Assembly: GCF_019931675.1 (NCBI RefSeq)
Contig: NZ_CP082922.1
Coordinates: forward strand, 1,751,001 to 1,815,000
Reading direction: 5' to 3'
Length of the DNA: 64,000 bases
Source: Nocardioides rotundus
Lineage (GTDB): Bacteria; Actinomycetota; Actinomycetes; Propionibacteriales; Nocardioidaceae
The notes under the pieces were generated by a model that was not told where the DNA came from, did no database searches, and saw only the letters and a program-made list of their open reading frames with translations. Both the position numbers and the translations under genes were made by a program. Shown here in pieces: positions 4,059 through 63,194 of this stretch (its first letter is position 1; each line of letters begins with the position of its first letter).

Positions 4059-4099
4059 CCGACCCGAGTCGTCGAGCCGGTCGAGGGGCAGGAGCCGCC

Positions 4100-5092: not shown

Positions 5093-5095
5093 GAC

Positions 5096-5723
5096 ATGCC
5101 CGACCTCACCGCGCTGCGCGCCTGGCTGGACGCCTTCGCCGCCGACGTACACGAGAACCGGGACCTGCTCACCCGCCTCGACGCCGACATCGGGGACGCC
5201 GACCACGGCAGCAACCTCGACCGGGGCATGGCCGCGGTGCTCGAGACGCTCGACGCCGGCCCGCCCGACTCCCCCGCCGCGCTGCTGAAGACGACCGGGA
5301 TGACCCTGGTGAGCAAGGTCGGCGGCGCGAGCGGCCCGCTCTACGGCACGCTGTTCCTCCGGATGGCCACGGCCGCCGGCGACGCCGACGAGCTCGACGC
5401 GGCCACGGTGGGCGTCCTCCTGCGGGCCGGCCTGGAAGGCGTGGTGGCCCGCGGCAAGGCCGAGGCGGGCGACAAGACGATGTACGACGCCCTCGAAGCC
5501 CGCGACCCGGGCCTACGACGACGCGGTGGCCGGCGGAGCCGCGACGGGCGACGCCCTGGACGCCGCCGCGCAGGCCGCGGCCGAGGGCCGCGACGCGACG
5601 ACCGCGATGCAGGCCCGCAAGGGCCGGGCGTCCTACCTCGGCGAGCGCAGCGTCGGGCACCAGGACCCGGGTGCCACGTCGATGGCGATGCTGGTCGCGG
5701 CCGCCGCCCGGACGCTGGGCTGA
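5096..5723 (+). pseudogene. dhaL: Dihydroxyacetone kinase subunit DhaL, single-base frameshift
   Basis: DhaL is the ADP-binding subunit that phosphorylates DhaK-bound dihydroxyacetone. The N-terminal part reads normally from ATG 5096, including GDADHGSNLDRGM and [10 protein letters not shown]. At 5495-5498 an extra A (GAAG where GAG restores the frame) shifts translation. Removing one A gives [16 protein letters not shown] and then the normal C-terminus with [12 protein letters not shown] and GHQDPGATS, ending at TGA 5721-5723, two bases before dhaM. In the unshifted frame the ribosome runs through into dhaM, which would give a 456-residue fusion product. This could be a sequencing error, a recent mutation or recoding. 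The sequence alone cannot decide. Confidence 0.85.
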
Positions 5724-8192: not shown

Positions 8193-10989
8193 GGGAGCTG
8201 TAGGCCACGACCCCGCGGCGGACGGCGTCCACGACGCCCCGGGCGGTACGGCGCAGCGGGGAGTCGCCCGCGGCGTCGGCGACCTGCCCCGCGAGGTCGA
8301 TCAGCTGCTTGGTGGCCCGCACGAAGTCGCCGGCCGACAGCGGAGAGGCGCGCAGGATGTCGTCCAGGTCATCGCCGGACGCCCAGCGGTAGGCCGCCCA
8401 CGCGAACCCCGGGTCGGGCTCGCGGAGGAAGTCCAGCTTGTGCCGCGCCTCCACGTCCCGCAGGTCTCCCCACAGCGACTGCATCTCCGCCAGCACCTGC
8501 TCCACCCGCCCGCACGGGATCCGCGGCGGCTGGTCGGGGTCCCGGCGCGACTCGTAGACCAGCGCCGACAGCACGGCGGCCAGCTCCGGCACGGTGAGGT
8601 CGTCCCACAGCCCGAGTCGCAGCGACTCGGCGGCGAGCAGGTCCAGCTCGGAGTAGATCCGCCGCAGGCCGCGACCGCGCTCGGTCACCCGGCCCCCGTC
8701 GTCGTCCAGGTCGAGGTAGCCGAGCTCGGCGAGCACCTCGCACACCCGGTCGAAGGTCCGCGCCACCGTGTTGGTGCGTCGCTCGACCCGGCGCCGTAGC
8801 GTCTCGGCGTCCCGGTCGAGCTTGGACCAGCGGTCCGCCCAGCGCTGGTGGTCCTCCCGGTCGGGGCATCCGTGGCACGGGTGGGCCTTGAGCTCGGCGC
8901 GCAGCGCGTCCACCTCGTCCCGGGTCTCCTGGTCTATGCCGCGCCGCCGCTCGGCCGCCTGACGGGGGCGCTCCAGGTCGCGCGTCCGGTTGCGCAGCGC
9001 TCCGGCCAGATCCCGGCGCTGCTGCGGGTTGCGGGGGTTGAAGTTCCGCGGCACCTTCATCCGGGTCAGCGCGGTGACCGGGACGGGGAAGTCGATCATC
9101 GACAGCCGGCGCACCTGCCGGTCCAGGGTCAGCACCTGCGGCCGCGGCTGGTCGCCGTACCCCGGATCCAGCACCACCGCGAGCCCGGCGAACTTGCCCG
9201 TCGGCACGTCGATCACGTCGCCGGGGCGCAGCGCCGTCAGCGACGCCGCCGCCTCGTCGCGGCGCTCCGCCCGCTGCGCCTTCTTCGCGCCCTTCTCCAC
9301 CTCGCTGATCCGGCGCCGGAGGGCGGCGTACTCCATGAAGTCGCCGCGGTCGCAGTGCGCCGCCTCGGCGTATCCCTCCAGCGCGTTCTCCGCCTTCCGC
9401 AGCTGGCGCGCCAGCCCGACGACGGCCCGGTCGGCCTGGAACTGCGCGAAGGACATCTCCAGCAGCTCGCGCGAGCGCTCGCGGCCGAACTGGTTCACCA
9501 GGTTGACCGCCATGTTGTACGACGGCCGGAAGGACGACCGCAGCGGATAGGTCCGGGTCGAGGCGAGGCCGGCCACCTGCTGGGGGTTCATCCCCGGCTG
9601 CCACAGGACGACCGCATGGCCCTCGACGTCGAGACCGCGGCGGCCGGCGCGCCCGGTGAGCTGGGTGTACTCCCCCGGCGTCAGGTCGGCGTGCTCGCGC
9701 CCGTTCCACTTCGACAGCTTCTCGATCACCACCGTGCGAGCGGGCATGTTGATGCCCAGCGCCAGCGTCTCGGTGGCGAAGACGACCTTGCACAGCCCCC
9801 GGGTGAACAGCGTCTCGACGCACTCCTTGAAGGCGGGCAGCAGCCCGGCGTGGTGGGCCGCGACGCCGCGGGACAGCGCGTCGAGGAAGTCGTGGTAGCC
9901 GAGCACCTCGCGGTCCTCGCTGGGCAGGTGGGCGGTGGCGGCCTCGACGTACTCGATGATCTCGTCCCGCTCCTCCGGCGAGGTCAGCCGCACGTTCGCG
10001 TCCAGGCACTGCTGGACCGCCGCGTCGCAGCCCTTGCGGGAGAAGATGAAGTAGATCGCCGGCAGCAGCCGCTCGCGCTCGAGCCGCTCGACGACCTCGA
10101 CCCGGCTCGGGATCCACACCCGGCGGCCGTTGCCGACGTTGCGGCCGCGGTTGCTGCCCTTGCGGTGGTCCCCGCGCATCCGCTTGTCCTTGGGGACGCG
10201 CCGGTCCCGCATCCGGGTGGCGGCGAAGTCGTCGCGGGCGACGCGCATCAGCTCCGGGTTGACCGGGGCGCCCTCGCCGACGAAGCCCGCCGATGCCTGG
10301 TCATCGGAGTGGGCGAACAGGTCGTAGAGGCGCCGCCCCGCCATCACGTGCTGGAAGAGCGGCACCGGCCGCCGCTCCTCCACGATGGTGGTCATCTCGC
10401 CGCGGACCGTGCCCAGCCACTCCCCGAACTCCTCGGCGTTGGAGACCGTCGCGGACAGGGAGATCACCTGCACCGACTCGGGCAGATGGATGATCACCTC
10501 CTCCCAGACCGCGCCGCGGGCCCGGTCGGCGAGGTAGTGCACCTCGTCCATCACCACGAACGCCAGCCCGAGCAGGGTGGGCGACCCGGCGTAGAGCATG
10601 TTGCGCAGCACCTCGGTGGTCATCACGACCACCGGCGCCTCCCCGTTGACCGAGGTGTCGCCGGTCAGCAGCCCGACGTTCTCCGCGCCGTGCCGCTCGA
10701 CCAGGTCGTGGAACTTCTGGTTCGACAGCGCCTTGATCGGGGTGGTGTAGAAGCACTTGCGGCCGGTGGTGAGCGCGAGGAAGACCGCGAACTCGCCGAC
10801 GACCGTCTTGCCGGAGCCGGTGGGCGCGGCCACCAGCACCCCGCGCCCGTCCTCGACCTCCCGGCACGCCTCGAGCTGGAAGGGGTCGAGGCCGAAGTCG
10901 TAGAAGGAGGCGAACTCGTGCAGCACGGGGTAGCGCTGCGCGGTCCTGCTCGCGGCGTACCGCTCGGCCGGGGTCTGCTCGTCGCTCAT
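8185..10989 (-). CDS. DEAD/DEAH-box RNA helicase, HelY/Ski2-Mtr4-like
   Basis: A 934-residue superfamily 2 helicase of the actinobacterial HelY group. Motif I is APTGSGKT (55-62), motif II is MDEVHYLAD, and motif VI is QLTGRAGRRGLD. The C-terminal half carries the DSHCT region (DLTVPELAAVLSALVYESRR). It probably takes part in RNA turnover or ribosome maturation. ATG 10989 overlaps the lipid kinase stop by 4 bp (ATGA). The gene ends the long leftward block and its stop lies inside the 31-bp repeat array. Confidence 0.92.
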   Translation of the reverse strand: MSDEQTPAERYAASRTAQRYPVLHEFASFYDFGLDPFQLEACREVEDGRGVLVAAPTGSGKTVVGEFAVFLALTTGRKCFYTTPIKALSNQKFHDLVERHGAENVGLLTGDTSVNGEAPVVVMTTEVLRNMLYAGSPTLLGLAFVVMDEVHYLADRARGAVWEEVIIHLPESVQVISLSATVSNAEEFGEWLGTVRGEMTTIVEERRPVPLFQHVMAGRRLYDLFAHSDDQASAGFVGEGAPVNPELMRVARDDFAATRMRDRRVPKDKRMRGDHRKGSNRGRNVGNGRRVWIPSRVEVVERLERERLLPAIYFIFSRKGCDAAVQQCLDANVRLTSPEERDEIIEYVEAATAHLPSEDREVLGYHDFLDALSRGVAAHHAGLLPAFKECVETLFTRGLCKVVFATETLALGINMPARTVVIEKLSKWNGREHADLTPGEYTQLTGRAGRRGLDVEGHAVVLWQPGMNPQQVAGLASTRTYPLRSSFRPSYNMAVNLVNQFGRERSRELLEMSFAQFQADRAVVGLARQLRKAENALEGYAEAAHCDRGDFMEYAALRRRISEVEKGAKKAQRAERRDEAAASLTALRPGDVIDVPTGKFAGLAVVLDPGYGDQPRPQVLTLDRQVRRLSMIDFPVPVTALTRMKVPRNFNPRNPQQRRDLAGALRNRTRDLERPRQAAERRRGIDQETRDEVDALRAELKAHPCHGCPDREDHQRWADRWSKLDRDAETLRRRVERRTNTVARTFDRVCEVLAELGYLDLDDDGGRVTERGRGLRRIYSELDLLAAESLRLGLWDDLTVPELAAVLSALVYESRRDPDQPPRIPCGRVEQVLAEMQSLWGDLRDVEARHKLDFLREPDPGFAWAAYRWASGDDLDDILRASPLSAGDFVRATKQLIDLAGQVADAAGDSPLRRTARGVVDAVRRGVVAYSSLD

Positions 10990-18086: not shown

Positions 18087-19154
18087 TCAGACCTGGCCCG
18101 GACCGGGCTGGGGGCGGTTCGGGTCGGGCGGCGGGGGGCCGCCCGGCTCGGGCCCCGGACCGGGAGACGGGGGCTGGCCGGGGTCCGGCCGGTCGGGCTG
18201 CGGCGCGGGGGGCGTCGCATCGCCCGGGTCGACCGGGTCCGGGGCGGGGGGCTGGCCGCCGCCCGGCCCGGACGGCGGGGCGACCGGGGGCTTTCCCGGC
18301 TCGCCGGTGACGGGGTTCTCCAGGGGCGGCGTCGCGCCGCTGACCTGGTCGGTGGGGTCCTGCGGGTCGTCGGTCCCCGACTGGGAGGGAGCCTTGCCCG
18401 GCTCCGCGTCCTCCGGCACCGGCGGGGCGGCCTGCTCCGGGCCCCGGTCGGCCAGCATCCTCTCCAGCCGCTCGCCGCGGATGCGGACGAACTTACGCGG
18501 CTGGGTGCGGTTGCGGTCCAGCACCGCGACCTCGAGGTCGGAGGTCGGGATCACTCGGTCGGTCGGCTTGCCCTGGTCGTCCAGGGTGTGCCCCAGCGCC
18601 GCCACGGCCGTCCGCAGCGCCGGCTCGAGCGCCGCGCCCGGCGCATAGTTGTCCTTGAGGTACGTCGTCACCGCGTCGGCCTGGCCGCCCATGACGGCGT
18701 ACCCGTGCGCGTCGGCGACCTGCCCCTGGTAGGTGAGCCGGTAGATCTGGTCCTCCTCCGGCGTCCGCCCGACCTCGGCGACGAAGATCTCGACCTCGTA
18801 TGGCTTCTCGCCACCGGAGGAGAAGATCGTGCCCAGCGTCTGGGCGTAGGCGTTGGCCAGGGCGCGCGCGGTCACGTCGCGGCGGTCGTAGGCGTAGCCG
18901 CGCATGTCGGCCAGCCGCACCCCGGCGATCCGCAGGTTCTCGAACTCGTTGTAGCGACCCACCGCCGCGAAGGCGATCCGGTCGTAGATCTCCGAGATCT
19001 TGTGCAGCGCCTGGGAGGGGTTCTCCGCGACCAGCAGGATGCCGTCGGCGTACTCCAGCGCGACGACCGAGCGTCCCCGGGCGATGCCCTTCTGCGCGAA
19101 GTCCGCCCGGTCCTTCATCAGCTGCTCGGGCGAGACGTAGAACGGGGTGCTCAC
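18087..19154 (-). CDS. prcA: Proteasome alpha subunit PrcA with long proline-rich tail
   Basis: PrcA forms the outer rings and gate of the 20S core. The first 240 or so residues are a standard alpha subunit ([59 protein letters not shown]). After them comes a tail of about 110 residues rich in Pro, Gly and Asp, which most PrcA proteins lack or have much shorter. GTG 19154 overlaps the prcB stop by 4 bp. The tail is in frame with no sign of a shift, so it is probably a genuine disordered extension. Confidence 0.95.
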
Positions 19155-20035
19155 TGCTCCTCCTCCACCTCGTCGCCCACGACCGGGGCGTCGGGACTGG
19201 TCACCAGCGGGGCCTCCGGGCCGTCGGGCCGGCGCATCCGGCCGGCGAGCATCCGGTCCGCGATCCGGGCGACCTCGTCGTCGGGCAGCTGCCGCCCACC
19301 CTCGTCGGTGATCACCTGCACCACCGGGAAGATCCGCCGGGTGAGGTCGGGGCCGCCGGTGGCCGAGTCGTCGTCGGCGGCGTCGTAGAGCGCCTGCACG
19401 ACGGCCATCACGCACTCGTCCTCGGTGAGGTCCTCGCGGTAGAGCTTCTTCAGCGAGCCGCGGGCGAACAGCGACCCGGAGCCGACGGAGTGGAAGGCGG
19501 TCTCCTCGTACTTCCCGCCGGTGACGTCGTAGGAGAAGATCCGGCCCTGCTCGGCGTCGGGGTCGAAGCCGGCGAAGAGCGGGACCACCGCCAGCCCCTG
19601 CATGGCCAGCCCGAGGTTGGCCCGGATGAGGGCGGCCAGCCGGTTGGCCTTGCCGTCGACGGAGAGGGTGACGCCCTCGATCTTCTCGTAGTGCTCCAGC
19701 TCGGTCTGGAACAGCCGGACCATCTCCACGGCGAGGCCGGCCGTGCCGGCGATGCCGACGCAGCTGTACTCGTCGGCGGGAAAGACCTTCTGGATGTCCC
19801 GCTGGGCGATGACGCTGCCCATGGTGGCGCGCCGGTCGCCGGCCATCACGACCCCTCCGGCGAAGGAGGCCGCCACGATCGTGGTGGCGTGGGGGGCCAG
19901 GTCGCCGGCGTTCCCCTGCGGGAGGCTCCGCCGCGCCGGCAGCAGGTCCGGGGCGTGCTCGGAGAGGAAGTCGGAGAAGGAGGAGGTTCCGGGGTTGAGG
20001 TAGGACGTGGGCAGGCGGGGGCTCTCGGCACTCAC
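19151..20035 (-). CDS. prcB: Proteasome beta subunit PrcB
   Basis: PrcB is the catalytic subunit of the 20S core. A propeptide of 50 residues precedes the nucleophile Thr51 (HATTIVAAS). Counting from it, Asp17 (AGDRRAT) and Lys33 (QKVFPADE) are in place, as are [12 protein letters not shown] and a C-terminal acidic tail. GTG 20035 lies 4 bp after the pup stop. The gene is the direct comparison for the phage-borne Ntn hydrolase at 61681. Confidence 0.97.
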
Positions 20036-48073: not shown

Positions 48074-48162
48074 GTCCGGGTGGCGGAATAGGCAGACGCG
48101 CTAGCTTGAGGTGCTAGTCCCCGTATTAGGGGGTGGGGGTTCAAGTCCCCCCTCGGACACCA
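48074..48162 (+). tRNA. tRNA-Leu (anticodon GAG)
   Basis: An 89-nt class II tRNA. The acceptor stem GTCCGGG pairs with CTCGGAC, with one G-T pair. The anticodon stem CTAGC/GCTAG encloses loop TTGAGGT (anticodon GAG). A long variable arm and the T-loop GGTTCAAGTCC follow. CCA is encoded (48160-48162). The phage-like element begins directly after it. Confidence 0.95.
48127..48162. other. Putative attL core in tRNA-Leu 3' end
   Basis: The integrase gene and foreign genes begin directly downstream of the tRNA. Tyrosine integrases commonly use the T-arm and acceptor 3' half of tRNA genes as the crossover site. The matching attR is outside the window, so the exact core cannot be set. Confidence 0.4.
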
Positions 48163-48230
48163 TCGCGGCCCCGGGTTTCTGCAGGTCAGAGGCTCGGGGC
48201 TTCGTCATGACCCCTCCGATTCGGGGCTCG

Positions 48231-48663: not shown

Positions 48664-49878
48664 TCACGCGCCGCCCTTCACGATCGCCGCGAACCGTGCC
48701 GCGGCCTCGGCCTGGCGGCCCGGCATCACGTGCTCGTAGATCTCGTGAGTGATCGCCACGCTCGCGTGACCGAGTCGCTCCGAGACGACCTTCACCTGCT
48801 CTCCTGCCGCCAGCAGGAGCGAGGCGTGCGTGTGCCGGAGGTCGTGGAGGTGGATCCGCGGCGGCGGTTCCCCCTCGACCTTCCGCCGGCACTGGTCGAG
48901 CTTCTCCACGAACCGCGCCGAGAACCGCTCCGGATGCAGGTGCTCGCCCTCGAGCGTGCCGAAGATCAACGCGTCGTGTCGCGCCAGTTGCAGCGCCAAC
49001 TCACCACGCTCGACCCGCCATGCCTTCAGCAGAGCGACCGTGTCGGGATCGAGATCGATCACCCGCGGCCGCGAGCTCTTCGTCGGGCCCTCCAAGACCT
49101 GGGACGGCTGACCCTTCACCTTCACCACCCCGACCGACCGACGTACCGCCAGCCGGCCAGCGTCCATGTTGAGGTCGCGCCAGCGGAGCGCGAGAAGCTC
49201 ACCGCGCCGCATCCCCGTGAAGGCGAGCACGTGGTAGGCCGTCGCGTGGGCAGCCCCGCTCTCGCGGCACCAGGTCAGGAACGTGGAGAGCTGGGGACCT
49301 GACCAGGGGTGGATCTCGGGCGACTTCGCTGCCCGGGCCGCCGGAGGCTTGGCCTTGTCGGCGGGGTTGCTGGCGATGATGCCCTGGTCGACGGCGTCAC
49401 GCAGCGCGGCCTTGAGGATCGTGTGGATGTAGCGCACGGTCCTGGCCGACAGGCCGGCGCCGCTCTGGTGGTCGCGCCGGCCGCTACGTTCCAGATCGCG
49501 GTACAGGGTCGAGATCCTGGCCCCGGTCAGGTGCTGGAGCTGGATCTGGCCGAGCACCGGCGCGATGTGGATCCTGACATTTTTGGCGTACGAGGCGCGG
49601 GTCGACGGGGCGAGCTGCAACCCGGCCAGCCACTCGTCGAGCCACGCGCCGAGAGTGACCTTGCTCGGGGCCACGTGTTCGCCGCGGTCGACCTTGGCGA
49701 GCTCGTCGCGGAGGTACTTCGCGGCGGCGGCGCGGGTGGCGTGCCCGCGCTTGAGGAGCACCTTCCGGGTGCCGTCGGGCTGGCGCACGGAGTACTTCGT
49801 CAGGTAGCGGGTGCCGGCGTTGGTCTCGTAGGCGGAGATCCCGCCCTCCCCCGCCTGACGGCGACGCGGCTTGGTCAT
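48664..49878 (-). CDS. int: Tyrosine-type site-specific integrase
   Basis: A 404-residue phage integrase. It has an N-terminal arm-binding domain (RYLTKYSVRQPDGTRKV), a SAM-like core-binding domain (TLGAWLDEWLAGLQLAPSTR) and a catalytic domain with Arg in FTGMRRGELLALRW, HDLRHTHAS, ERLGHAS and Tyr in ITHEIYEHVMPG. ATG 49878 follows GGAGGAAGC. It points toward tRNA-Leu, the expected attachment site. It overlaps the upstream HTH gene stop by 4 bp. Confidence 0.96.
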   Translation of the reverse strand: MTKPRRRQAGEGGISAYETNAGTRYLTKYSVRQPDGTRKVLLKRGHATRAAAAKYLRDELAKVDRGEHVAPSKVTLGAWLDEWLAGLQLAPSTRASYAKNVRIHIAPVLGQIQLQHLTGARISTLYRDLERSGRRDHQSGAGLSARTVRYIHTILKAALRDAVDQGIIASNPADKAKPPAARAAKSPEIHPWSGPQLSTFLTWCRESGAAHATAYHVLAFTGMRRGELLALRWRDLNMDAGRLAVRRSVGVVKVKGQPSQVLEGPTKSSRPRVIDLDPDTVALLKAWRVERGELALQLARHDALIFGTLEGEHLHPERFSARFVEKLDQCRRKVEGEPPPRIHLHDLRHTHASLLLAAGEQVKVVSERLGHASVAITHEIYEHVMPGRQAEAAARFAAIVKGGA

Positions 49879-50789: not shown

Positions 50790-51020
50790 GTGAGCGACCT
50801 GATCGCCGACGTTCGAGCAGCACGAAGGCTCCCCAGCCACAACATGGCCAGGGCGATCCGCGAGAACGCCTCGGTTACGCAGCAGCAACTCGCCGACGCG
50901 GTCGGGGTTCACAGAGTCACGCTCGCACGATGGGAGGCGGGGACCACTCTCCCGCGAGGCAAGCTGCGGGCCAGGTACGCCCGGTTGCTCGCGGAACTCC
51001 AGCGGGAGCTGGCCGCATGA
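50790..51020 (+). CDS. XRE-family HTH protein
   Basis: A 76-residue protein, nearly all helix-turn-helix (SVTQQQLADAVGVHRVTLAR, then WEAGTTLPRG). It probably acts as a Cro-like or early regulator. GTG 50790 has an AGGAGG ribosome site. It overlaps the next gene by 4 bp and is divergent from the HTH-integrase unit. Confidence 0.88.
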   Translation: MSDLIADVRAARRLPSHNMARAIRENASVTQQQLADAVGVHRVTLARWEAGTTLPRGKLRARYARLLAELQRELAA

Positions 51021-51346
51021 CCACCCAGATGCCCGATCCAATGCCGCTATTCCTGCGGGTCGCCCAGGTCGCCGAGCTCCTCGAGGTCGACCCACGGACA
51101 GTACGACGCGCGATCGACGAGAACGACCTCCCCGCCGTCCGCGTCGCACAGACCATCCGCATCCCCACCGGCGAGTTCCTCGCCTGGGCCCACCTGACCC
51201 CCGACAGCAGCGAGGCCGGACCCGCCAGTCCGGCCACCGCCTCACCGCTGCGCCCCTCCGACCAACCCGAAGGAGCACACCACGATGGTGACCCCGACAC
51301 CACAGCCACCGCAAGCAACGCCCTCCGCGTCGTCTCCGGCGACTGA
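51017..51346 (+). CDS. Excisionase-like HTH protein
   Basis: A 109-residue protein with a MerR/AlpA-type winged HTH at the N-terminus (FLRVAQVAELLEVDPRTVRR, IPTGEFLAW). The C-terminal half is Ser/Ala/Thr-rich and probably disordered. It probably controls excision or early transcription. ATG 51017 overlaps the previous stop. Confidence 0.82.
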   Translation: MTTQMPDPMPLFLRVAQVAELLEVDPRTVRRAIDENDLPAVRVAQTIRIPTGEFLAWAHLTPDSSEAGPASPATASPLRPSDQPEGAHHDGDPDTTATASNALRVVSGD

Positions 51347-52311: not shown

Positions 52312-52640
52312 CCCGACGAATTCCTCTCGCCTCGGCCACGCCGGCCGACTTTGCTTTCAGGGTGCTGCGTGACGTGTGGCTCGACGCCGACGCTGCCTAC
52401 TGGCTCCGCCGCGCCGCAGCGTTCGAAGCGGCCGCCCCACGACCCGGCGACCACCCCGGCCGCGCAACCCCGCAGCAGATCGAGGAAGCACGCCGCCGCT
52501 GCCAGGAGACCGCGGCCGCCTGCCGGGCACGCGCCAGCCTCACCGCCGCTAGCGACCAGGTGTTCGTCGACACCCTCGCCGCCGTCGCCCTGTCCCCCGA
52601 CCGACTCCTCGAACCCGCCGAAGGAGCCGCCGCAGCATGA
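52308..52640 (+). CDS. Hypothetical helical protein of early region
   Basis: A 110-residue, Ala/Arg-rich, mostly helical protein (DAAYWLRRAAAFEAA, QIEEARRRCQETAAACRAR). No motif is recognised. GTG 52308 overlaps the previous stop, and its own stop overlaps the RepA-like gene start. Confidence 0.6.
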   Translation: MTRRIPLASATPADFAFRVLRDVWLDADAAYWLRRAAAFEAAAPRPGDHPGRATPQQIEEARRRCQETAAACRARASLTAASDQVFVDTLAAVALSPDRLLEPAEGAAAA

Positions 52641-53968
52641 CGCCACCCGTCGAGATCAGCCCCGACTTCGGTCACGACCACGAGCTGCACGCAGTCACCC
52701 CCACCGACGACGACCTCGCCGAACACGACGCCGCCTTCGAGCGAGAGAACGACGCCGCGGCCTACTTCGCCAAGGAAGTGGCCAGCGAGGTAATGCGTCA
52801 ACGCGTCCGCGAAGAAGCCCGCCGCCGCCTCGCCGCCGAAGAACGTGCCACCGCCAGCCGGCCGCGCCCGATACGACTCGACGACTTCCTCGCACGGACC
52901 TTCGACAGCGCCACCTACCGGATCAGTGAACTCTGGCCCACCGGAGGCAGGGTCATGCTCGCCGCCCAATGGAAGGCCGGCAAGACCACCCTCGTCAGCA
53001 ACGCCATCCGCGCCCTGGTCGACAACGCCACGTTCCTCGGCCGCTTCGACACCACCCCCGGCGCCCGCGTGTGCCTCATCGACAACGAGCTCGACCCCCG
53101 ATTCCTCCACCAATGGCTCAGCGACCAGGGCATCACCAACACCCGCGACGTCAGCGTCATCACACTCCGCGGCCGTGTCGCCACCTTCGACATCCTCGAC
53201 CCCGACACCCGCACCGAGTGGGCCCGCGAGCTCGCCGGGCACGACGTGATCATCCTCGACTGCCTCCGCCCCGTCCTCGACGCACTCAACCTCTCCGAAG
53301 ACAAGGACGGCGGCCGATTCCTCGTCGCCTTCGACGCCCTCCTCGCCGAAGCCGGAGCCAACGAAGCACTCGTCGTCCACCACATGGGCCACCACGGCGA
53401 ACGATCCCGCGGCGACTCGCGCCTCCAGGACTGGCCCGACGCCCTCTGGAAACTCGTCCGAGACAAGGACGCCGACGACGACCAACTCGACGACCCCACC
53501 GGCTCCCGCTACTTCTCCGCCTTCGGCCGCGACGTGAACGTCACCCAGGCCGAACTCACCTACCAGCCCGACACCCGACACCTCACCCTCGGCGAAGCCG
53601 CCCTCACCCGCCGCGAAGCCTCCGCCCGCCGTCGCAGCGAGCAACTCGACCAAGCCGTCATCGATGCCGTCGGAGAACACCCCGGCATCAACAAGACCAA
53701 GCTCCGCTACGACGTACGCAACCGCGGCATCGGACGCAACGAAGACATCGACCGCGCCGTAGAACGCACCGTCGAACGAGGCCTCATCACCCGCCGCAAG
53801 GTCGGCAACACCTGGCAGCACTACCCCGGCGAGGAACCCCTACCTGCCCAACCTGCCCAACCTGCCCCAGACCCGCCCGGGCATGCGGGCAAGTACATGC
53901 CCGCCCGCCCTATAGGGGCGGGCATGAACATGCACACCCCCAACCCCACCGATGGAGACCACCAATGA
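52637..53968 (+). CDS. RepA-like AAA ATPase/helicase with winged helix
   Basis: A 443-residue ATPase of the RepA/AAA_25 type (hexameric RecA-like). Walker A is AAQWKAGKTTL, Walker B VIILDCLRPVLD, and sensor region ALVVHHMGHHGERSRGDS. A C-terminal winged helix (GINKTKLRYDVRNRG) follows. It probably starts replication of the element. The tail has AQPAQPAP repeats and then CXC-free low-complexity sequence. The neighbouring operon is tightly overlapped. Confidence 0.88.
   Translation: MTPPVEISPDFGHDHELHAVTPTDDDLAEHDAAFERENDAAAYFAKEVASEVMRQRVREEARRRLAAEERATASRPRPIRLDDFLARTFDSATYRISELWPTGGRVMLAAQWKAGKTTLVSNAIRALVDNATFLGRFDTTPGARVCLIDNELDPRFLHQWLSDQGITNTRDVSVITLRGRVATFDILDPDTRTEWARELAGHDVIILDCLRPVLDALNLSEDKDGGRFLVAFDALLAEAGANEALVVHHMGHHGERSRGDSRLQDWPDALWKLVRDKDADDDQLDDPTGSRYFSAFGRDVNVTQAELTYQPDTRHLTLGEAALTRREASARRRSEQLDQAVIDAVGEHPGINKTKLRYDVRNRGIGRNEDIDRAVERTVERGLITRRKVGNTWQHYPGEEPLPAQPAQPAPDPPGHAGKYMPARPIGAGMNMHTPNPTDGDHQ
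53896..53926. repeat. 11-bp hairpin inside the 3' end of the RepA-like gene
   Basis: Arms CATGCCCGCCC (53896-53906) and complement (53916-53926) enclose a 9-nt loop, within the last 25 codons. It may be an early terminator or an mRNA stabiliser. Just upstream, three 9-bp tandem units ACCTGCCCA (53842-53868) encode the AQPAQP tail. Confidence 0.55.
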
Positions 53969-54106: not shown

Positions 54107-54673
54107 ATGGATGACGAGCGTCGGTGCAGAGCGACGTCGAAGCAGAGCGGCGAACGGTGCAAGCGTGCCGCGATCCCCGGCGGCCGCGTGTGCGTCATGC
54201 ACGGCGGCGCAACGAGGGCAGCCCGGGCAGCGGCCGAGGCCCGACTCGCGCAGGCAGAGGCGACGCGGATGTTGGAGCTGATCTGGGATCCGGAGGCGGA
54301 GCCGGTGACGGACGCGGTGCAGGCGCTGCAACGCCTGGCCGGCCAGCTGCAGCACGCTGCCGATGTGCTGGGAGCGCGCCTTTCCTCGGCGAATCTCGAT
54401 AGCGCCACCGGCGTCGCGTGGACGCGCGTGGTCCGAGAGCTACGCATGTCACTGGAGGGGGTGCAGAGGCTGGGTCTCGAGGAGAAGCACGTCCAGCTGG
54501 AGCACGAGAAGGCGGTGCTGGTGAGCCAAGCGTTCCAGGCGGTCATGGACGCGTTGGCGTTGTCGCCTGCAGACAGGGACCGGGCGATCCGGACCTTTCT
54601 TGAGCAACTCCGGACGCCACTTCTGGACCCGGTCGGCAGCCCGCCGGTGCTCATGGCGGAGGGCGACGGATGA
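54107..54673 (+). CDS. HGG-motif phage protein, possible small terminase
   Basis: A 188-residue protein. The N-terminal zinc-finger-like stretch (RRCRATSKQSGERCKRAAIP, then GGRVCVMHGG) is the HGG motif common in phage genes next to terminase. The rest is a helical coil (LQRLAGQLQHAADVLGARL). It may be the DNA-recognising small terminase, but no large terminase follows. ATG 54107 has a GGGAGGGGGC ribosome site. The 138-bp gap before it holds no gene. Confidence 0.7.
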   Translation: MDDERRCRATSKQSGERCKRAAIPGGRVCVMHGGATRAARAAAEARLAQAEATRMLELIWDPEAEPVTDAVQALQRLAGQLQHAADVLGARLSSANLDSATGVAWTRVVRELRMSLEGVQRLGLEEKHVQLEHEKAVLVSQAFQAVMDALALSPADRDRAIRTFLEQLRTPLLDPVGSPPVLMAEGDG

Positions 54674-55153: not shown

Positions 55154-55885
55154 TCAGCCGCCGCCCCCGATCTGCTTGAACCCCTCCTGCACGAGTGCCT
55201 TCCCGATCTCCGTGCTCGTGCCGGTCATGAACCCGGTTCCGATCATCTTCGCCCCGGACCGCCAGCGCTTGGCCATCGTGGTGTCGCGGTCACCCTCTGC
55301 CCGATCCGCCTGAAGGTGCATCGCGCCGCTGAGTTCGAGGGCGACAGAGCGGACGGTCTCGGCTCCGTACTTGTCGAGGTTCTCAACGAGGAAGCGGGCT
55401 CGCTGGATGAGCGCCGCCAGGTAACGCTGAGCGTCCACGGGGATCTTGTCGACGTCGTCTTGGAGGATCTTCTCGGCTTCCTCGAGAACGTCGGCAAGCG
55501 ACCGGCGCTCGTCTTCGCCGATCACGAGGTGGGGCTGGGCGTCGATCAACAGTCCGAGCGACTTGAGCATGTTCAGCGACGGGGGGTCGCAGGCCACCCT
55601 GTTCTTGCTGATCCCGTTGTCCCATGGCGTCTTGGCCATGTAGACGCCTCGGTACCAGTGCGGCAGCGCGTTGCGGAAGATCGTCGTGTCGGTGCCGGTC
55701 GCCTCCATCCCGTCGAGGGTCGCATGCAGCTGTTGGACGGCCGCGAGCTCCGCCATGTGGTGACGCCAATGGTTGGAATCGAGCCCCCTGGGATCGAAGC
55801 CGTGGACCGTCTGTGGCAAGGTCCCGGAGGGCACCTCGAGCTCCTCAAGCATCTCGGCCACAAGGTGGGCCACGTTCTTGGGCAT
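55154..55885 (-). CDS. Lone reverse-strand gene in the element (moron candidate)
   Basis: A 243-residue soluble, mostly helical protein. Segments include TVHGFDPRGLDSNHWRHHMA, FRNALPHWYRGVYMAKTPWD and VDAQRYLAALIQRARFLVEN. The C-terminal end is Gly-rich (GTGFMTGTSTEIGKA, GGGG). It runs against the surrounding genes, has its own GAGGAG ribosome site and a terminator, and has lower GC. That is the usual setting of a lysogenic-conversion or anti-phage gene. No family recognised. Confidence 0.75.
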   Translation of the reverse strand: MPKNVAHLVAEMLEELEVPSGTLPQTVHGFDPRGLDSNHWRHHMAELAAVQQLHATLDGMEATGTDTTIFRNALPHWYRGVYMAKTPWDNGISKNRVACDPPSLNMLKSLGLLIDAQPHLVIGEDERRSLADVLEEAEKILQDDVDKIPVDAQRYLAALIQRARFLVENLDKYGAETVRSVALELSGAMHLQADRAEGDRDTTMAKRWRSGAKMIGTGFMTGTSTEIGKALVQEGFKQIGGGG

Positions 55886-57081: not shown

Positions 57082-57495
57082 GTGGCGGGCAACGAGGTCT
57101 TTCGCGACGGGGACTGCGTGTCGGTGCCGGTGCCTGTCGGGACGAGGGCAGGTGACCCGGTTCGGGTGCGGGGTCTGAACGGGTGGGCGCAGACGGATCG
57201 TGCGAACGCGTCGGTGTCGCCGATGAACGCGGACGGTAGCCGGAACGTCGCGTACAACTACGGCGGCGGCAACCCGGACGGCCACGCGACGGTGTGGCTG
57301 CGTGGAGCCCCCGTGTTCGAGGTCGACTTCGCGGTCAAGGCCGGGGATCCGGTGTTCATCACCGTGGACGGCACGAACAGGCTCGCGGGTGCTGCCGGTG
57401 AGGGGCTGGTGCGGTACGGGCATGCGCTCGCCGCGAAGCCGGCTGGGGTGGGGGCGTTGGCGGTGCGGGTGAGCAACGCCCGGGAGTCGTCGTGA
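57082..57495 (+). CDS. DUF2190-like capsid decoration/fibre protein
   Basis: A 137-residue beta-rich protein. RDGDCVSVPVPVGTRAGDPV, the central VNGT-type turns and GEGLVRYGHALAAKPAGVGA resemble DUF2190 head-decoration proteins. It would sit on the capsid surface, although no major capsid gene is seen. GTG 57082 follows a GGGGGGAG site. Confidence 0.6.
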   Translation: MAGNEVFRDGDCVSVPVPVGTRAGDPVRVRGLNGWAQTDRANASVSPMNADGSRNVAYNYGGGNPDGHATVWLRGAPVFEVDFAVKAGDPVFITVDGTNRLAGAAGEGLVRYGHALAAKPAGVGALAVRVSNARESS

Positions 57496-57839
57496 TCTGG
57501 GGCTGGCGTCGGGACAGGTGGCGGCGGTCGCTTCGGGCGGAGTTGGCGGAGCGTGACCGGGAGGTCCGCACGCTGCGCCGCGAGCTCGAGGCGGTGAAGG
57601 CTCGCGCGGCTCGGCAGCAGGCGGCGGCCGCGGCCGCTGCGCAGGCTGCGCGGGCGCGTGAGGAGGCCCGCGGGGTGATCGCTGAGGCGGGCGGGCTGCG
57701 GTTCAACCTGCTGCAGGTGCGGGGGCTGCTGGTGGATCTGCCGATGGATGACCGTGGCCGCCTGGATGTGGCGGCGTTCGCGGTGCGGGTGTTCGACGCG
57801 GCCGCGGAGATCAGGGACAGCGAGGAGAGTGCGCGATGA
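57492..57839 (+). CDS. Coiled-coil protein in structural region
   Basis: A 115-residue protein with a long basic coiled coil (ELAERDREVRTLRRELEAVK). GTGA overlap with the DUF2190-like gene and ATGA overlap with the next gene suggest co-translation. A scaffold role is possible but unproven. Confidence 0.6.
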   Translation: MIWGWRRDRWRRSLRAELAERDREVRTLRRELEAVKARAARQQAAAAAAAQAARAREEARGVIAEAGGLRFNLLQVRGLLVDLPMDDRGRLDVAAFAVRVFDAAAEIRDSEESAR

Positions 57840-58705
57840 CGAACCGGAAGACGCTGCAGGCGGCCGTGGCCGCGGCGGAGTCGCAGCTGGTGGAGGCCCG
57901 CGGGGTGCTGGGCCAGTGGCGTGACCGGACCGCGGACGCGGTGGCCGACCTGGCGCGGGTGGAGGCGTTGTCGGGTGATGAGCTCCTCGACGACGCCGAG
58001 GCGGCGGCTGCGTGGCCGGTGCGGGTCCGGGAGGCGCGGGACGCGGTGACGGTCGCGGAGCGCGCCACGGAGGCGCAGGAGCGGCGCGTGCTGGTCGCGG
58101 AGCGTGTCTGGCTGGGCGCGCAGGCGGCGCTGTTGCAGGCCGTGGAGGTGGAGCCGGCGGCGGCGGCGCTGAAGGGGCACACCGACCGGACGGCGGAGCT
58201 GCTGGCCGCGTTGGAGGAGCACGACGGCCCCTACGTGCACCGGTCCCGGGTGGCGGCGCTGGAGCGGACGCCGGGACAGCCGACCGTGATCGACGTGCCG
58301 AAGAGTCGCCCGCTGGCGCAGGCGGCCCGTCTCGCGGAGCTGCGTCACCAGGTGCTGGTGGCGATGGCGGCCGGGGAGGATCCGGCCGGCGTGGTCGCGG
58401 CCCGTGGCGAGGACTTCGTCGAGGACGACTGCTACCCGGCGTGTGTGCAGGCGACGGGTCTGGTGCCGGCGCCGGCGTACGTGGCTCGGGTGGAGGCTGT
58501 GCGGGTGCGGGTGGCCGAGCTGGAGGCTCTGCCCGGGCAGATCGCCGCGGAGGTCGAGGCGCTCCCCGAGCGGGCGGCCCGTGAGGGGTGGTCCGCGGAG
58601 GTCCTGGCCCAGGCGGAGGAGCGGCGACGGGCACGGGTCGAGGACATCCCCGGCGAGCTCGACGAGGCCCGCGAAGCCCTGTCGGCGTTGACCGGCGGGT
58701 CCTGA
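57836..58705 (+). CDS. Long coiled-coil protein in structural region
   Basis: A 289-residue, Ala/Glu/Arg-rich protein, largely coiled coil. A less helical middle part (GPYVHRSRVAALERTPGQPT) and a CYPACVQATG cysteine pair are the only distinct spots. Function unknown. A scaffold or tail-assembly role fits its position. Confidence 0.6.
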   Translation: MTNRKTLQAAVAAAESQLVEARGVLGQWRDRTADAVADLARVEALSGDELLDDAEAAAAWPVRVREARDAVTVAERATEAQERRVLVAERVWLGAQAALLQAVEVEPAAAALKGHTDRTAELLAALEEHDGPYVHRSRVAALERTPGQPTVIDVPKSRPLAQAARLAELRHQVLVAMAAGEDPAGVVAARGEDFVEDDCYPACVQATGLVPAPAYVARVEAVRVRVAELEALPGQIAAEVEALPERAAREGWSAEVLAQAEERRRARVEDIPGELDEAREALSALTGGS

Positions 58706-58724: not shown

Positions 58725-59087
58725 GTGGGTGCGCGTCTGGACCAGAGCCAGCTGGAGCGGTTCGCCGTCGACCTGCACGCCGCCGGGTCTCGTGCTGATG
58801 TGCGTCTGGGGCAGGCGGTGAGGCGGTTCGTGTTCGAGGTCGAGGCGGCCGCGAAGGTCACGGCGCCGGTCGACACCGGCGCCCTCCGCTCCTCCATCGG
58901 TGGGGCGTCGAAGACGGGCGTGGGGCGGCATGTCGGCGCCGTGGACGCGACGGTCGGCTATGCCGGGTTCGTCGAGTACGGCACCTCGACGCAGGCGCCG
59001 CAGCCGTTCCTCGGGCCCGCGTTCGACGGTGCGGTGCCGGGGCTGGTGCAGGCGGCGCTGCGGATCGGGGCGGAGGCGATCCAGTGA
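58725..59087 (+). CDS. HK97 gp10-like head-tail/tail completion protein
   Basis: A 120-residue protein with the gp10-family features APVDTGALRSSI, VGYAGFVEYGT and PQPFLGPAFD. These proteins form the tail end or head-tail joint of siphophages. GTG 58725. It overlaps the tape measure start by 4 bp. No tail tube gene lies between them, which is unusual. Confidence 0.85.
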   Translation: MGARLDQSQLERFAVDLHAAGSRADVRLGQAVRRFVFEVEAAAKVTAPVDTGALRSSIGGASKTGVGRHVGAVDATVGYAGFVEYGTSTQAPQPFLGPAFDGAVPGLVQAALRIGAEAIQ

Positions 59088-61684
59088 CAGACGATGCACG
59101 CCGGATCCGGGTTGTCCTGACGCTGGAGAACTCCGCGTACCTCCGCAACGTCAAGGCGTCCGGCCAGACCACCGACGCCACGATCGCGAAGAACCGCGCG
59201 GCCGTCGCCGGCCTCGGCGACGACTTCGACGCCACCACCCGTTCGGTGCGTGATCTGTCCACCGAGATCGGCCGCAGCGAGCGCGCCATCGACTCCTTCT
59301 CCGGGCGGGCCGGGATCGTTGGCGACGCCCTCCTCACCCTTGGCCCTGCGGCGATCCCGGCACTCGCCGCGACTGCGCCGCTGGTCGGGGCCCTCGGTGA
59401 GTCCCTCGGCACCGCAGCCCTGGCCGGCGGCACCGCCGCGTTGGCGTTCCGCGGCGTCGGGGACGCCCTGGGCGCGGTCCAGAAGGCGAAGCTGGAACCA
59501 ACCGTTGCGAACCTCGCGGCCGCCCGGCAGGAACTGCAGCAGCTCTCACCGCCGGCGCGAGCGTTCGTGCTCGAGCTGTCCCGCCTCTCCCCCGTCGTGA
59601 ACAGCCTGACCGGGGCCGCCGCCTCCGGGCTGTTCCCCGGCCTGACCAGCGCGCTGACCACGATGGCTGATGCTGCGCCGCGGGCTCGGGAGTTCCTCCG
59701 CGAGGTCGGCGACGCCACCGGCGACGTCGCTGCCGCGTCGGCCGCGGATCTGACGTCGGGGCGTTGGTCGGACTTTGTCGACTTCCTCCAGGCCGACGCC
59801 CGCCCCAACATGCAGTTGACCGCCGAGGCCGCGCTCGACCTCGGCCACGGCCTCTCCGAGCTGTGGATGCAGTTCTCACCGGCGAACAACGCGGGGATGC
59901 AGTCGATCGCCGACGCCGCCGACGCGTTCGACCGGTGGGCCAGCTCTGCCCAAGGGGCCCAGGCGGTCAACCAGGTGATGGGCTACATGCGCGAGGTCGG
60001 TCCCGAGGTCGCTGAGGCAACCGTCGCGATCGCGTCGGGACTCAGCGGGATCGTAGAGGCTGCGGCCCCGCTCGGTGGGCCGGCGTTGAACGCCCTGGAG
60101 GCGTTCTCCAACGTCGTCGGCGGCCTCGCCCGATCCGACCTCGGCACGCCCCTACTGGCCGGGCTCGCCGCGTGGCGGCTCTACACGCGTGCCACCCAGT
60201 CCTACGACGCAGTGCTGCGGTCCGGACCGTTGACCTCCACCCGCGAGTTCCTCACCCAGGCCCGCACCGGCGTACCGACCATGGCCCAGTTCAGTGCCGT
60301 CCTGACCAGGGCCGGCCAGTCCGCGCAGTTCCAAACCGCGCAGACCCGTGAAGCACGAGCCGCCGTCGGCGGCTACCTGCGCCAGTTCTCCGGCACCGCC
60401 GGCGCCGTCGCCCAGGTCGGCACCCTCACCGCCGTCACCTCCGGCCTGACCGACAAGCTCGGCGTCACCAACACCGCATCCCTCGCCCTGGCCGGGTCGA
60501 TGGCCGGGCCCCTCGGCGCCGCGGTGGGCGGCGTGGTCGGTGGCTTCCTCGACATCCGCAAGGCCGGCGAACCCGCCCGCAACGCCATCGAGGGCATCAA
60601 CGAGGCGATCGCCTCCGGCGACCTCCGCGCCCTGCAGGACAACCTCCGCGCCGCCCGCACCGAGCTCGCCGACCTCGAGGACTTCGGGTCCGGGTTCGGT
60701 GACTTCTTCAGCGACGTCGGCAAGATCCTGGCCGCCGGGCCACGGGACGCCTGGCGTGAGACCACGAAGCTGGAGAGTTCCACGATCGCGGCATCCAACG
60801 CGATCGCGCACATGCGCGCCAACTCCGGCGGCATCGGCGACATCTTCGCCCGCGACCTGGGGGTGACGAACCGTGCGCTTGTGGTCGCCACCGGCAGCGC
60901 ACGGGAGTTCCGTGCTGCCATGGCGTCGGTCAACGCGACGCTGTCCGGGCGGGCGTCGATGCGGGACTACGAGGCTGCCCTGGACAACCTTCGTGCCACC
61001 TGGGCCCAGTTCGGCAACCGCGACTTCGTGAAGAACAACGGCAAGTTCAAGATCGGCCTCGAGGGTGGACGACAAGTCGAAGCGGCGCTCGACAACATCG
61101 CCGCTGAGTCGCTGCGGGTCGCGGAGAACTTCAAGGGCATGGACCGGGTGCGGTTCATGCGGCGGGCCCGAGCCGACTTCATTGAGAACGCACGACTCCT
61201 CGACCTCAATGCCGGCCAGGCGCGTCAGCTGGCCACCGAACTCGGCCTGTTGGGCAACAAGAAGGCCAAGCCCGGTGTCGACCTGATGGACGCACCCTTC
61301 CGCAACAAGCTCCGCGGCGCCGAGCGCGGCGTGAACGAGTTCGACCGGAAGAAGGGCACCGCGACGATCGACGGCAACAACAAGCCGGCATCCGCCCGCC
61401 TCTCTGCCGCGGAGCGTCGTCTGGCCGCCTGGAACAGGGCCCTCGGCATGGCCGAGGTCGACGCCAAGGACAACGCGTCGAACACCATTGCTGCCGTCGG
61501 GGCGAGGCTGCGGGCTCTGGACGGCAACCGGGCGCGGACCTACGTCGAGACCGTGTACACCTCCTCGGGCAAGCGGTTCAAGGACGTCCCCAGCGGAGTG
61601 CCAGCAGCGGCCGCCGGCCCTGCGGTCAGACTCCCGGGGGCTCCGCCGTATCCGTCGCCGTTCGACCAGGAGCCCGCAGCATGA
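59084..61684 (+). CDS. Phage tail tape measure protein
   Basis: An 866-residue, Ala-rich helical protein that sets tail length. The start has a TMP-like beta/coil segment (RIRVVLTLENSAYLRNVKAS) and GDDFDATTRSVRDLSTEIGR. Hydrophobic segments (AAIPALAATAPLVGALG, GSMAGPLGAAVGGVVGGFL) fit membrane insertion during DNA ejection. The C-terminal part has a repeated RLSAAERRLAAWN-type unit. It lacks a peptidase or lysozyme domain. The next gene overlaps by 4 bp. Confidence 0.9.
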   Translation: MTDDARRIRVVLTLENSAYLRNVKASGQTTDATIAKNRAAVAGLGDDFDATTRSVRDLSTEIGRSERAIDSFSGRAGIVGDALLTLGPAAIPALAATAPLVGALGESLGTAALAGGTAALAFRGVGDALGAVQKAKLEPTVANLAAARQELQQLSPPARAFVLELSRLSPVVNSLTGAAASGLFPGLTSALTTMADAAPRAREFLREVGDATGDVAAASAADLTSGRWSDFVDFLQADARPNMQLTAEAALDLGHGLSELWMQFSPANNAGMQSIADAADAFDRWASSAQGAQAVNQVMGYMREVGPEVAEATVAIASGLSGIVEAAAPLGGPALNALEAFSNVVGGLARSDLGTPLLAGLAAWRLYTRATQSYDAVLRSGPLTSTREFLTQARTGVPTMAQFSAVLTRAGQSAQFQTAQTREARAAVGGYLRQFSGTAGAVAQVGTLTAVTSGLTDKLGVTNTASLALAGSMAGPLGAAVGGVVGGFLDIRKAGEPARNAIEGINEAIASGDLRALQDNLRAARTELADLEDFGSGFGDFFSDVGKILAAGPRDAWRETTKLESSTIAASNAIAHMRANSGGIGDIFARDLGVTNRALVVATGSAREFRAAMASVNATLSGRASMRDYEAALDNLRATWAQFGNRDFVKNNGKFKIGLEGGRQVEAALDNIAAESLRVAENFKGMDRVRFMRRARADFIENARLLDLNAGQARQLATELGLLGNKKAKPGVDLMDAPFRNKLRGAERGVNEFDRKKGTATIDGNNKPASARLSAAERRLAAWNRALGMAEVDAKDNASNTIAAVGARLRALDGNRARTYVETVYTSSGKRFKDVPSGVPAAAAGPAVRLPGAPPYPSPFDQEPAA

Positions 61685-62613
61685 CCCTGCTCGCCTTCGC
61701 GCTCTACGACGACCGAGCCGAACTCCTCACCGACACCCTGTCCTACAGCCTGAACGTCAGCAGCCTCGGCCACCACACCAAGCTGATGCCGCTGACGCAC
61801 CTGGACTGCGTGATCGCCACCGCGGGCGATCACGAGTTCGGAACCGACGTCCGGCTAGGCCTGGCGCACCTCGGCGCGAAGATGGAGACCTTCGACGACC
61901 TCGTCGAGCACACCCCCGCTGTCCTCAGGGCGCTGCACGAAGACGCCCCAGCGCTCACCTGCAGCACCGTGTTCCTGCTCGGCTACTCCCCCGCGGCGGA
62001 GAGGTTCACCGCGCACGTCTACGCCAACGACGACGACTTCACGCCGCTGCAGGTGACCAGGCCGTGGGTGATGCCCGCACCCTGGGTAGTGCGGCCAACC
62101 GACCTCGAAGTGAGCCGCCTCAAGGCACAACCTGATGACGGCAGCTTCGAACGTCTGGGAGAGCAAGACGCTGAGACCTGGCAGGCCCGTCCACCCCTGG
62201 ATCCTCCTGCAGACGTCGATGAGTGGATCATGCTCGCCGAACTCGCTCGCGCACACCGCGCACTCGACGGCCCCTTCCACACCTGCATCGGCGGCCAACT
62301 GCTGCTCACCCGCATCTGGCAAGGCGCCCAGACCACCGAACGAGTCGGGACGTTCAACGACACCGGCGAGGAGCTCCTCAAGCTCGTCCAGTGGACCCGC
62401 CACCCACTCGCTCAGGAGCAACCCTGCTGGTGCGGCTCCGGCCACCGCTTCGTCGAGTGCGCCCTCCGCGACGAGTGGGGCGAACCCTGCCTGTGCAAGA
62501 GCGGCCTGACGTTCCGCGACTGCTGCCGCATTCCCGCGGACGAGACCGTCCCACACGTCCATGACCCGACCGCCGTCCAGCAGCGGCCGCTGCCCGAGAA
62601 GGAGCAGGCATGA
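61681..62613 (+). CDS. Proteasome-beta-like Ntn hydrolase fused to SEC-C zinc motifs
   Basis: A 310-residue protein directly after the tape measure gene. With Met removed, Thr1 is exposed, and D17 (LLTDTLS) and K33 (HHTKLMP) match the proteasome triad seen in PrcB of this genome. Cys42-Val43 and the following ATAGD also align with PrcB. So the first 200 or so residues are probably an Ntn hydrolase without propeptide. The C-terminus has two SEC-C-like motifs: CWCGSG...C (Cys249, 251, 260) and CLCKSG...CC (Cys270, 272, 281, 282). Activity and target are unknown. The family is inferred from motifs alone. Confidence 0.7.
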   Translation: MTLLAFALYDDRAELLTDTLSYSLNVSSLGHHTKLMPLTHLDCVIATAGDHEFGTDVRLGLAHLGAKMETFDDLVEHTPAVLRALHEDAPALTCSTVFLLGYSPAAERFTAHVYANDDDFTPLQVTRPWVMPAPWVVRPTDLEVSRLKAQPDDGSFERLGEQDAETWQARPPLDPPADVDEWIMLAELARAHRALDGPFHTCIGGQLLLTRIWQGAQTTERVGTFNDTGEELLKLVQWTRHPLAQEQPCWCGSGHRFVECALRDEWGEPCLCKSGLTFRDCCRIPADETVPHVHDPTAVQQRPLPEKEQA

Positions 62614-63194
62614 CCGAGACGACCGACCAGGCCCTCACCGATGACGCCGACTGGAGCATCGACGACCTCCTCGACGAGTTCCGCCCCGCTGAGACTGTCG
62701 CCCGGTTCGTCCTGCGCCACGACCTTGCCGCCGCCAGGGGCGACATCGCCGCGGAGCTGGGCACCCTCCTCACACCATTCGGAACCCCCCGACCTGGCCG
62801 CGAGGACGATGTGCGCCGGCTGGCTGCCCGCCTCGTCGACGTCGACCAGCAACTCGAGCAGAGCCGACGAGCCATCCGGTTCCGGGGCCTGAACGCCGCC
62901 GACCTGGAACAGTTCGAACGCAAGCACCACCCGGACCACCAGCCCGACGCGGAGGGCCGCACCTTCCTGCTCCAGCTCGCCGCCGAGACCGCGATCGCGC
63001 CTCCCCTGACCGTGGCGGACCTGCAGAAGCTGCAGAACGCGTTGCCCGCTGCGGCGATCTCGGAGATCTTCGACAAGGCCCGGGCGGCGTCGTACGGCGT
63101 CGACGACGCCACGCGGCTGCCCGCCGCGGTACTGCGGCTGGCCGCGGGATCGGAGCCCGACGAGGAGCAGGAGTCGGCTAACTCGGACGAGTGA
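62610..63194 (+). CDS. Phage tail assembly chaperone
   Basis: A 194-residue protein. The core IRFRGLNAADLEQFERKHHP with ALTV-type segment PPLTVADLQKLQNALPAAAI matches siphophage tail assembly chaperones. These normally lie before the tape measure gene. Here it lies after the Ntn hydrolase gene. ATG 62610 overlaps the previous stop. Its last 17 bp overlap the convergent HIRAN gene. Confidence 0.75.
   Translation: MTETTDQALTDDADWSIDDLLDEFRPAETVARFVLRHDLAAARGDIAAELGTLLTPFGTPRPGREDDVRRLAARLVDVDQQLEQSRRAIRFRGLNAADLEQFERKHHPDHQPDAEGRTFLLQLAAETAIAPPLTVADLQKLQNALPAAAISEIFDKARAASYGVDDATRLPAAVLRLAAGSEPDEEQESANSDE

Follow-up and report, generated by a model that had tools for sequence, protein, structure and literature searches.

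A predicted proteasome-type Ntn protein with SEC-C motifs, encoded behind the tape measure gene of small integrated elements in Nocardioides

We analyzed a stretch of 64,000 nucleotides from Nocardioides rotundus (contig NZ_CP082922.1, positions 1,751,001 to 1,815,000; hereafter the window), which holds a gene (61681..62613, + strand) for a predicted N-terminal nucleophile (Ntn) protein of the proteasome type with SEC-C zinc motifs at its C-terminus. Conservation and structure prediction support the view that this is a proteasome-type protein whose active-site residues are intact and which bears zinc motifs. The gene appears to be the signature gene of satellite-like integrated elements of about 10–19 kb, which have no portal or HK97-type capsid gene that we could recognise and in which it directly follows the gene for a tape measure protein (TMP). 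We tentatively propose that the product acts on a tape measure or other tail protein. A first-pass annotation had singled out this gene from the DNA letters; its observation is confirmed, and its interpretation as a phage-borne enzyme of a tail operon is partly supported.

The gene starts with ATG and encodes 310 amino acids (P0001 in our numbering) beginning Met-Thr. When Thr2 (codon 61684..61686), the predicted N-terminal nucleophile after Met removal, is counted as 1, Asp18 (61732..61734) and Lys34 (61780..61782) fall at the proteasome positions Asp 17 and Lys 33, just as had been read from the open reading frame. The host PrcB, encoded in the same window (19151-20035, - strand), has Thr51, Asp67 and Lys83, and the identical spacing claimed for the two proteins was borne out. 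A Cys-Val pair at Thr-numbered positions 42-43 had been cited as a further shared feature. It is indeed present in PrcB, but Cys43 is found in only 3 of the 12 SEC-C-type members, namely P0001 and two relatives with 98% and 84% identity to it; given that its bearers are so few and are near relatives of each other, we consider the pair uninformative and rejected it as evidence.

The two SEC-C-like motifs reported for the C-terminus were recovered as two stretches matching the Pfam profile PF02810 (E 1.1e-7; score 32 bits, cut-off 20.4). The second motif (residues 270-282; 62488..62526, + strand) is complete, with its full set of ligands at Cys270, 272, 281 and 282. The first (residues 249-261; 62425..62463, + strand) retains Cys249, 251 and 260 but has Ala261 at the fourth ligand position, which is Cys or His in most relatives. 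Among the nine other SEC-C-type members scanned, which included neither P0002 nor the member from genome G650, PF02810 scored over the cut-off in four (P0003, P0005, P0009 and the G251 member) and below it in three (P0006, P0008, P0010), with no match in P0004 and P0007.

Fold comparison placed the predicted structure of P0001 in the proteasome/Anbu type, with the alpha-beta-beta-alpha arrangement that the first-pass annotation had anticipated. This relationship surfaced by fold comparison only, as neither P0001 nor an alignment of SEC-C-free relatives (A6) nor one of SEC-C-type members (A9) retrieved a proteasome chain when solved structures were searched by sequence. A conservation alignment of 131 sequences (12 SEC-C-type and 119 others) revealed Asp18 and Lys34 in every sequence that has the respective column (126/126 for each). 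Of the 120 sequences in which residue 2 is present, 119 have Ser or Thr there; 11 further ones, mostly short or late-starting predictions, have a gap. The residue is Thr in all 12 SEC-C members, and the others have 99 Ser, 8 Thr, a single Val and the 11 gaps. Gly49 (Thr-numbered 48) is likewise conserved (129/129), and lies one residue off the oxyanion-hole Gly47. There is thus none of the free variation that would have told against the proposed active site, and this conservation together with the predicted fold suggests that the catalytic pattern is more than a chance likeness.

The SEC-C-fused form seems to be one branch of a larger family. Direct searches drew in few SEC-C relatives (5 and 6 matches, in overlapping sets), and P0011, a protein of 220 amino acids without SEC-C from genome G415, gave 118 family matches as a query, none with a precomputed Pfam domain. 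Profile comparison of A9 (11 rows) with A6 (16 rows) united the two groups over 208 columns of the Ntn part (probability 99.8, E 1.5e-29). P0011 without its first Met is also matched over 204 residues (E 1.2e-30) by phrog_13702, a profile of 218 positions labelled terminase large subunit, which matches residues 1-127 of P0001 (61681-62061; E 4.1e-5) and ends before the SEC-C part. We rejected this label because it conflicts with the predicted proteasome fold; phrog_13702 represents the SEC-C-free Ntn family, and the label, probably mistaken, would lead to wrong prophage annotation.

The gene sits in a discrete element with an integrase and att sites, as a satellite would have. A 28-bp direct repeat (attL, 48139..48166) at the 3' end of tRNA-Leu(GAG) (48074-48162), which it overlaps, recurs exactly at 66100-66127, 2.1 kb beyond the end of the window, which therefore stops inside the element; the element spans 17,961 bp from repeat start to repeat start, or 17,989 when both repeats are counted in. 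Near attL lies a gene for a tyrosine integrase of 404 amino acids (48664..49878, - strand; PF00589 E 2.6e-21, phrog_1 E 1e-67). The assignment to a tail operon was upheld: the gene is preceded on the + strand by those for an HK97-gp10-like tail completion protein (58725..59087; PF04883 E 3.7e-10, phrog_5 E 2.1e-20) and for a TMP of 866 amino acids (59084..61684; phrog_167 E 7.6e-13; 34% over 441 residues to the TMP of the G012 element), whose stop overlaps the Ntn-SEC-C start by 4 nt. The term phage-borne has to be changed, because neither Phage_portal (PF04860) nor Phage_capsid (PF05065) matched anywhere in the window's genome (G000), these two profiles covering portal and HK97-type capsid families only and each matching 4 of 14 control genomes. 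In G000 the terminase profile phrog_2 gave a single weak match, 1.8 Mb away from the element; in 4 of the 5 element-bearing genomes this loose profile, which also matches 11 of the 14 controls, hits only outside the elements. The carrier thus has the look of a small integrated element without a capsid, not of a complete phage.

Intact SEC-C-fused genes were also found in three genomes of the window's genus, G012, G027 (P0008, labelled Nocardioides sp. Kera G14) and G251, and in G650, from another class. All five elements have a common layout of integrase, small genes, TMP and Ntn-SEC-C. TMP directly upstream was seen in each of these five intact loci read in context, which cover 5 of the 12 SEC-C-type sequences, P0002-P0006, P0009 and P0010 being without DNA context. 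The TMP was assigned from PHROGs in the window element, G012, G027 and G251 (in the last through the C-terminal 486 of 849 residues), and in G650 by likeness to the G251 TMP (46% over 382 residues). In four elements the TMP and Ntn genes share 4 nt at their junction; in G650 they are separated by a 5-nt gap. Flanking direct repeats, sought in four elements including that of the window, measure 26 bp in G012 (13.9 kb apart), 21 bp in G027 (10.3 kb apart) and 23 bp in G251 (at tRNA-Asp, 18.8 kb apart). When the five elements were compared, the Ntn gene was detected in 10 of 10 pairs and the TMP in 4 of 10, and besides Ntn no called gene was common to all pairs. A portal match in G251 (contig 42) and a capsid match in G012 (at 1.60 Mb) both lie outside the elements. 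PHROGs coverage extended to 10 of 21 called genes besides Ntn in the window element, 10 of 21 in G251, 7 of 16 in G012, 3 of 11 in G027 and none in G650.

The first-pass annotation had offered a tail-linked protease, a decoy of the host Pup-proteasome and a self-defence enzyme; the first fits best, because the TMP is directly upstream in all five loci. The fold, the catalytic residues, the element anatomy and the TMP pairing are supported by prediction and conservation, and we infer proteolytic activity, a TMP substrate, an SEC-C tether and helper dependence. On this reading, which we judge a little short of an even chance, the enzyme would be translated together with the element's TMP, ordinary Met removal by methionine aminopeptidase would bare Thr1 with no need of a propeptide, and the SEC-C motifs, going by the roles of such modules, would hold the enzyme near its substrate. 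It could then trim the element's own TMP, or remove the TMP of a helper such that tails are built on that of the element. Cleavage of the TMP during tail morphogenesis has been reported for lambda and T5 (PMC10038345, available part of the text). A more far-reaching version, to which we give a low probability, is that these elements are a new, capsid-less actinobacterial satellite class that hijacks helper tails with its own TMP and, encoded in one operon with it, an SEC-C-guided proteasome-fold protease destroying or reprocessing the helper TMP; the tails of the helper would then be built to the satellite's design.

Several observations weigh against action on a tape measure or tail protein. 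Only five elements were read, and the absence of a portal or capsid match from G000 implies that it has no resident helper of that type. The 54 loci of SEC-C-free relatives (19 genome contigs and 35 viral contigs, at least 4 pairs of which look like the same prophage in both) include 20 without a match to a panel of K, L, M and TMP proteins (we take the tail gene letters K, L and J to be lambda names). Three of the 10 E. coli matches were read: two have an integrase and a truncated ygiQ as neighbours, and the third is carried by a conjugative plasmid; the G415 copy adjoins an IS-like gene and dnaB, and some loci in metagenome-assembled genomes (MAGs) look chromosomal from their gene starts. 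Such copies away from tail genes suggest that the job of the core domain need not be tail-specific. Moreover, 28 of the 54 loci have the gene in contact with a lambda-K-like tail gene of the other strand, an arrangement that would be expected for a moron expressed on its own.

The last point leads to the chief competing explanation for the whole family, which we hold to be possible but less probable, that the protein is an anti-phage moron. Expressed on its own, such a protease would protect the lysogen by cutting a protein of an invading phage, perhaps one of its tail. The cargo-like placement of relatives in prophages, beside the E. coli integrase and on the plasmid is in keeping with it and argues for an autonomous activity, and one relative lies near what we take to be an FRG-like gene. 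There are precedents in Tab and Tai, prophage-encoded blockers of tail assembly (Tai also satellite-encoded), of which Tab acts on the TMP and is encoded in JBD26 on the minus strand, as a moron that has its own promoter (PMC10884400, PMC11364771, available parts). Tab, however, has 83 residues and lies between the small and large terminase genes, unlike P0001 with its 310 residues after the TMP gene, and the string 'proteas' does not occur in the Tab paper (PMC10884400), nor 'protease' in the Tai paper (PMC11364771). The SEC-C-fused genes lie in line with that for the TMP, to which they are coupled; this speaks against a moron, and no counter-defence partner turned up, though none was specifically searched for. 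PADLOC matched P0001 alone of 8 family members; this 'E2' match was rejected along with those of P0001 to NCBIfam, as both come from the SEC-C part only. The SEC-C branch may have turned an autonomous activity of the family to the TMP.

At the level of the element, and compatible with any of these functions, the carriers might be decayed prophages that happen to have kept the TMP and Ntn genes. Leftover-like genes exist in the form of the HK97-gp10-like gene (window and G251), a weak cement-like match (window) and a small-terminase-like gene (phrog_1496, in G027). However, five elements from two genera of different classes have one and the same minimal set, its frames long and intact; together with the flanking repeats in four of them and the helicase/primase genes of the window and G251 elements, this makes decay improbable in our view.

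Three other functions are less plausible still. A catalytically dead Ntn fold serving as a tail chaperone would suit the position next to the TMP gene, which tail chaperone genes often adjoin, but the retention of Ser/Thr2, Asp18 and Lys34 across the 131 sequences wherever present, with one residue 2 excepted, renders it quite unlikely. Much the same low standing, if not slightly lower, applies to a ligase or transpeptidase that joins rather than cuts, for example by crosslinking or tagging tail proteins: connectase has the same fold and is a protein ligase (PMC8665760, available part), but in our secondary-structure reading the P0001 model has no counterpart of the two-helix S3/S4 insertion described for it. 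A decoy or poison that joins or blocks the PrcAB rings of the host, suggested by the shared catalytic spacing and by the prcB in the window, next to what we take to be prcA, pup and dop, is very improbable, as P0001 has no sequence similarity to solved proteasome chains and the family also occurs in Pseudomonas and enterobacteria, which to our knowledge have no Pup-proteasome.

Among the remaining SEC-C-free loci, the lambda-K-like gene lies 1.3-3.2 kb away in 5 of the 54, and one has a TMP match alone. PHROGs tail families at locus L040 are K (phrog_30), L (phrog_18) and TMP (phrog_24), and the Ntn neighbour is a J-like tail protein in L047 and the TMP in L043. The E. coli and plasmid copies read (L098, 12001-12600; L100, 10001-10600; L099, 15021-15612; plasmid of 31.6 kb) are annotated as hypothetical proteins. 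What we take to be a dnaB-like gene with an intein-like stretch lies next to the G415 gene (L016, 2005-3336), and a presumed FRG-like gene (L029, 9092-9832) lies near the Ntn gene in a Woeseiaceae MAG, the surroundings possibly being a defence neighbourhood.

The counts that follow include the window's own genome. The gene is carried by 4 of 96 relatives, once as a fragment. In the order, 9 of 391 genomes gave a match (4 intact SEC-C-fused, the SEC-C-free G415 and 4 with the SEC-C part only), and in the class 5 of 394, intact and SEC-C-fused only in G000; of the other four, G837 looks SEC-C-free (an Ntn-domain match in a 265-aa frame on contig 45), G1125 has a fragment and two have the SEC-C part only. 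The order and class scans scored the best 5 first-look candidates per genome, such that a miss is not a clean absence. Matches in G153, G219, G232, G304, G453, G813 and G837 contig 35, spanning model positions from about 201 on and hence chiefly the SEC-C part, were dropped before counting. The G004 and G1125 matches look like gene fragments; the latter (L111, about 9410-9535), which resembles the Ntn domain, lies near an integrase-like gene and some 4 kb from a 900-aa gene (2444-5146), and the locus may derive by decay from an element of this group. Across 396 genomes of the phylum the phrog_13702 profile matched two, G000 and G650, and it matched none of the 14 controls, and the gene is found in 10 of 5,426 E. 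coli genomes. Searches of 50,697 phage records by tblastn with P0001, P0061, P0083 and P0036 found no match; P0011 without its first Met hit two records of one phage at E 0.4, which we judged chance. Scans with P0001, A2, P0011 and P0009 yielded no confirmed locus.

The rest of the window element contains, on the + strand, genes for an HTH_17 protein, perhaps an excisionase (51017..51346; PF12728 E 1.3e-10; 30% over 67 residues to a G251-element protein), a helicase/primase-like AAA_25 protein (52637..53968; PF13481 E 6.6e-18, phrog_239 E 4.9e-6), an unassigned protein of 134 residues with uncertain start (54269..54673; 50% identity over 104 residues with the G251 element), the weak phage cement match, also of uncertain start (57082..57495, or from the shorter start 57223; PF09956 E 0.019, below cut-off), and an unassigned protein of 289 residues (57836..58705; 35% identity over 183 residues with one at the same place in the G251 element). 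An unassigned protein of 243 residues (55154..55885, - strand) is 40% identical over 240 residues to one of the G251 element. Downstream, the gene for a 194-aa protein (62610..63194, + strand) overlaps the Ntn-SEC-C stop by 4 nt; this protein had no family match in PHROGs, Pfam, PADLOC and NCBIfam-type scans, and could be a partner of the Ntn-SEC-C protein.

The first-pass annotation knew of no described protein with such a layout. This stands for the SEC-C fusion, none being found in the open-access literature on SEC-C with phage and on phage proteasome homologues so far as its available text goes; the phage homologues themselves were known. Fuchs et al. 2021 distinguished 22 subfamilies of proteasome-like proteins with no function given, PPH and AAH of phages among them, which share Thr/Ser1-Asp17-Lys33 with the present family and are like it spread partly by phages, and the available part of their paper found no genomic context suggestive of function (PMC8665760); neither 'SEC-C' nor 'zinc' occurs in its main text. 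PPH has about 140 residues and no helix H2 (PMC8665760, available part), whereas the P0001 model has helices at 51-65 and 71-88 in the part we read as H1/H2, and on size and helix count P0001 is not a PPH. From Anbu and proteasome beta subunits it differs by its SEC-C tail, lack of a propeptide, mobile-element home and lack of sequence similarity to solved proteasome chains. Of the known small helper-dependent satellites, the cf-PICIs and Mulch/Flayer have genes for capsid and packaging and for the most part use borrowed tails (PMC10690885, available part); the present elements, likewise small and putatively helper-dependent, have their own TMP and no recognised portal or capsid. The open-access satellite literature, including actinobacterial cases (PMC10690885, PMC4936722), describes no tape-measure-carrying satellite in its available parts. 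Thus the fold class was already known, and the SEC-C fusion, the TMP coupling and the element type are new as far as the literature searched and the comparison with PPH show.

Whereas the families of Fuchs et al. had no telling context, the position of the SEC-C branch after the TMP gene in five loci supplies a first testable substrate. A phage-like element with an Ntn-SEC-C gene beside its TMP hints at an unstudied way of handling or hijacking tail assembly. Should the proposed action on a tape measure or tail protein prove true, the proteasome fold would gain a tie to the building of virions or to rivalry among mobile elements, and a type of satellite that takes over tails instead of capsids would be indicated.

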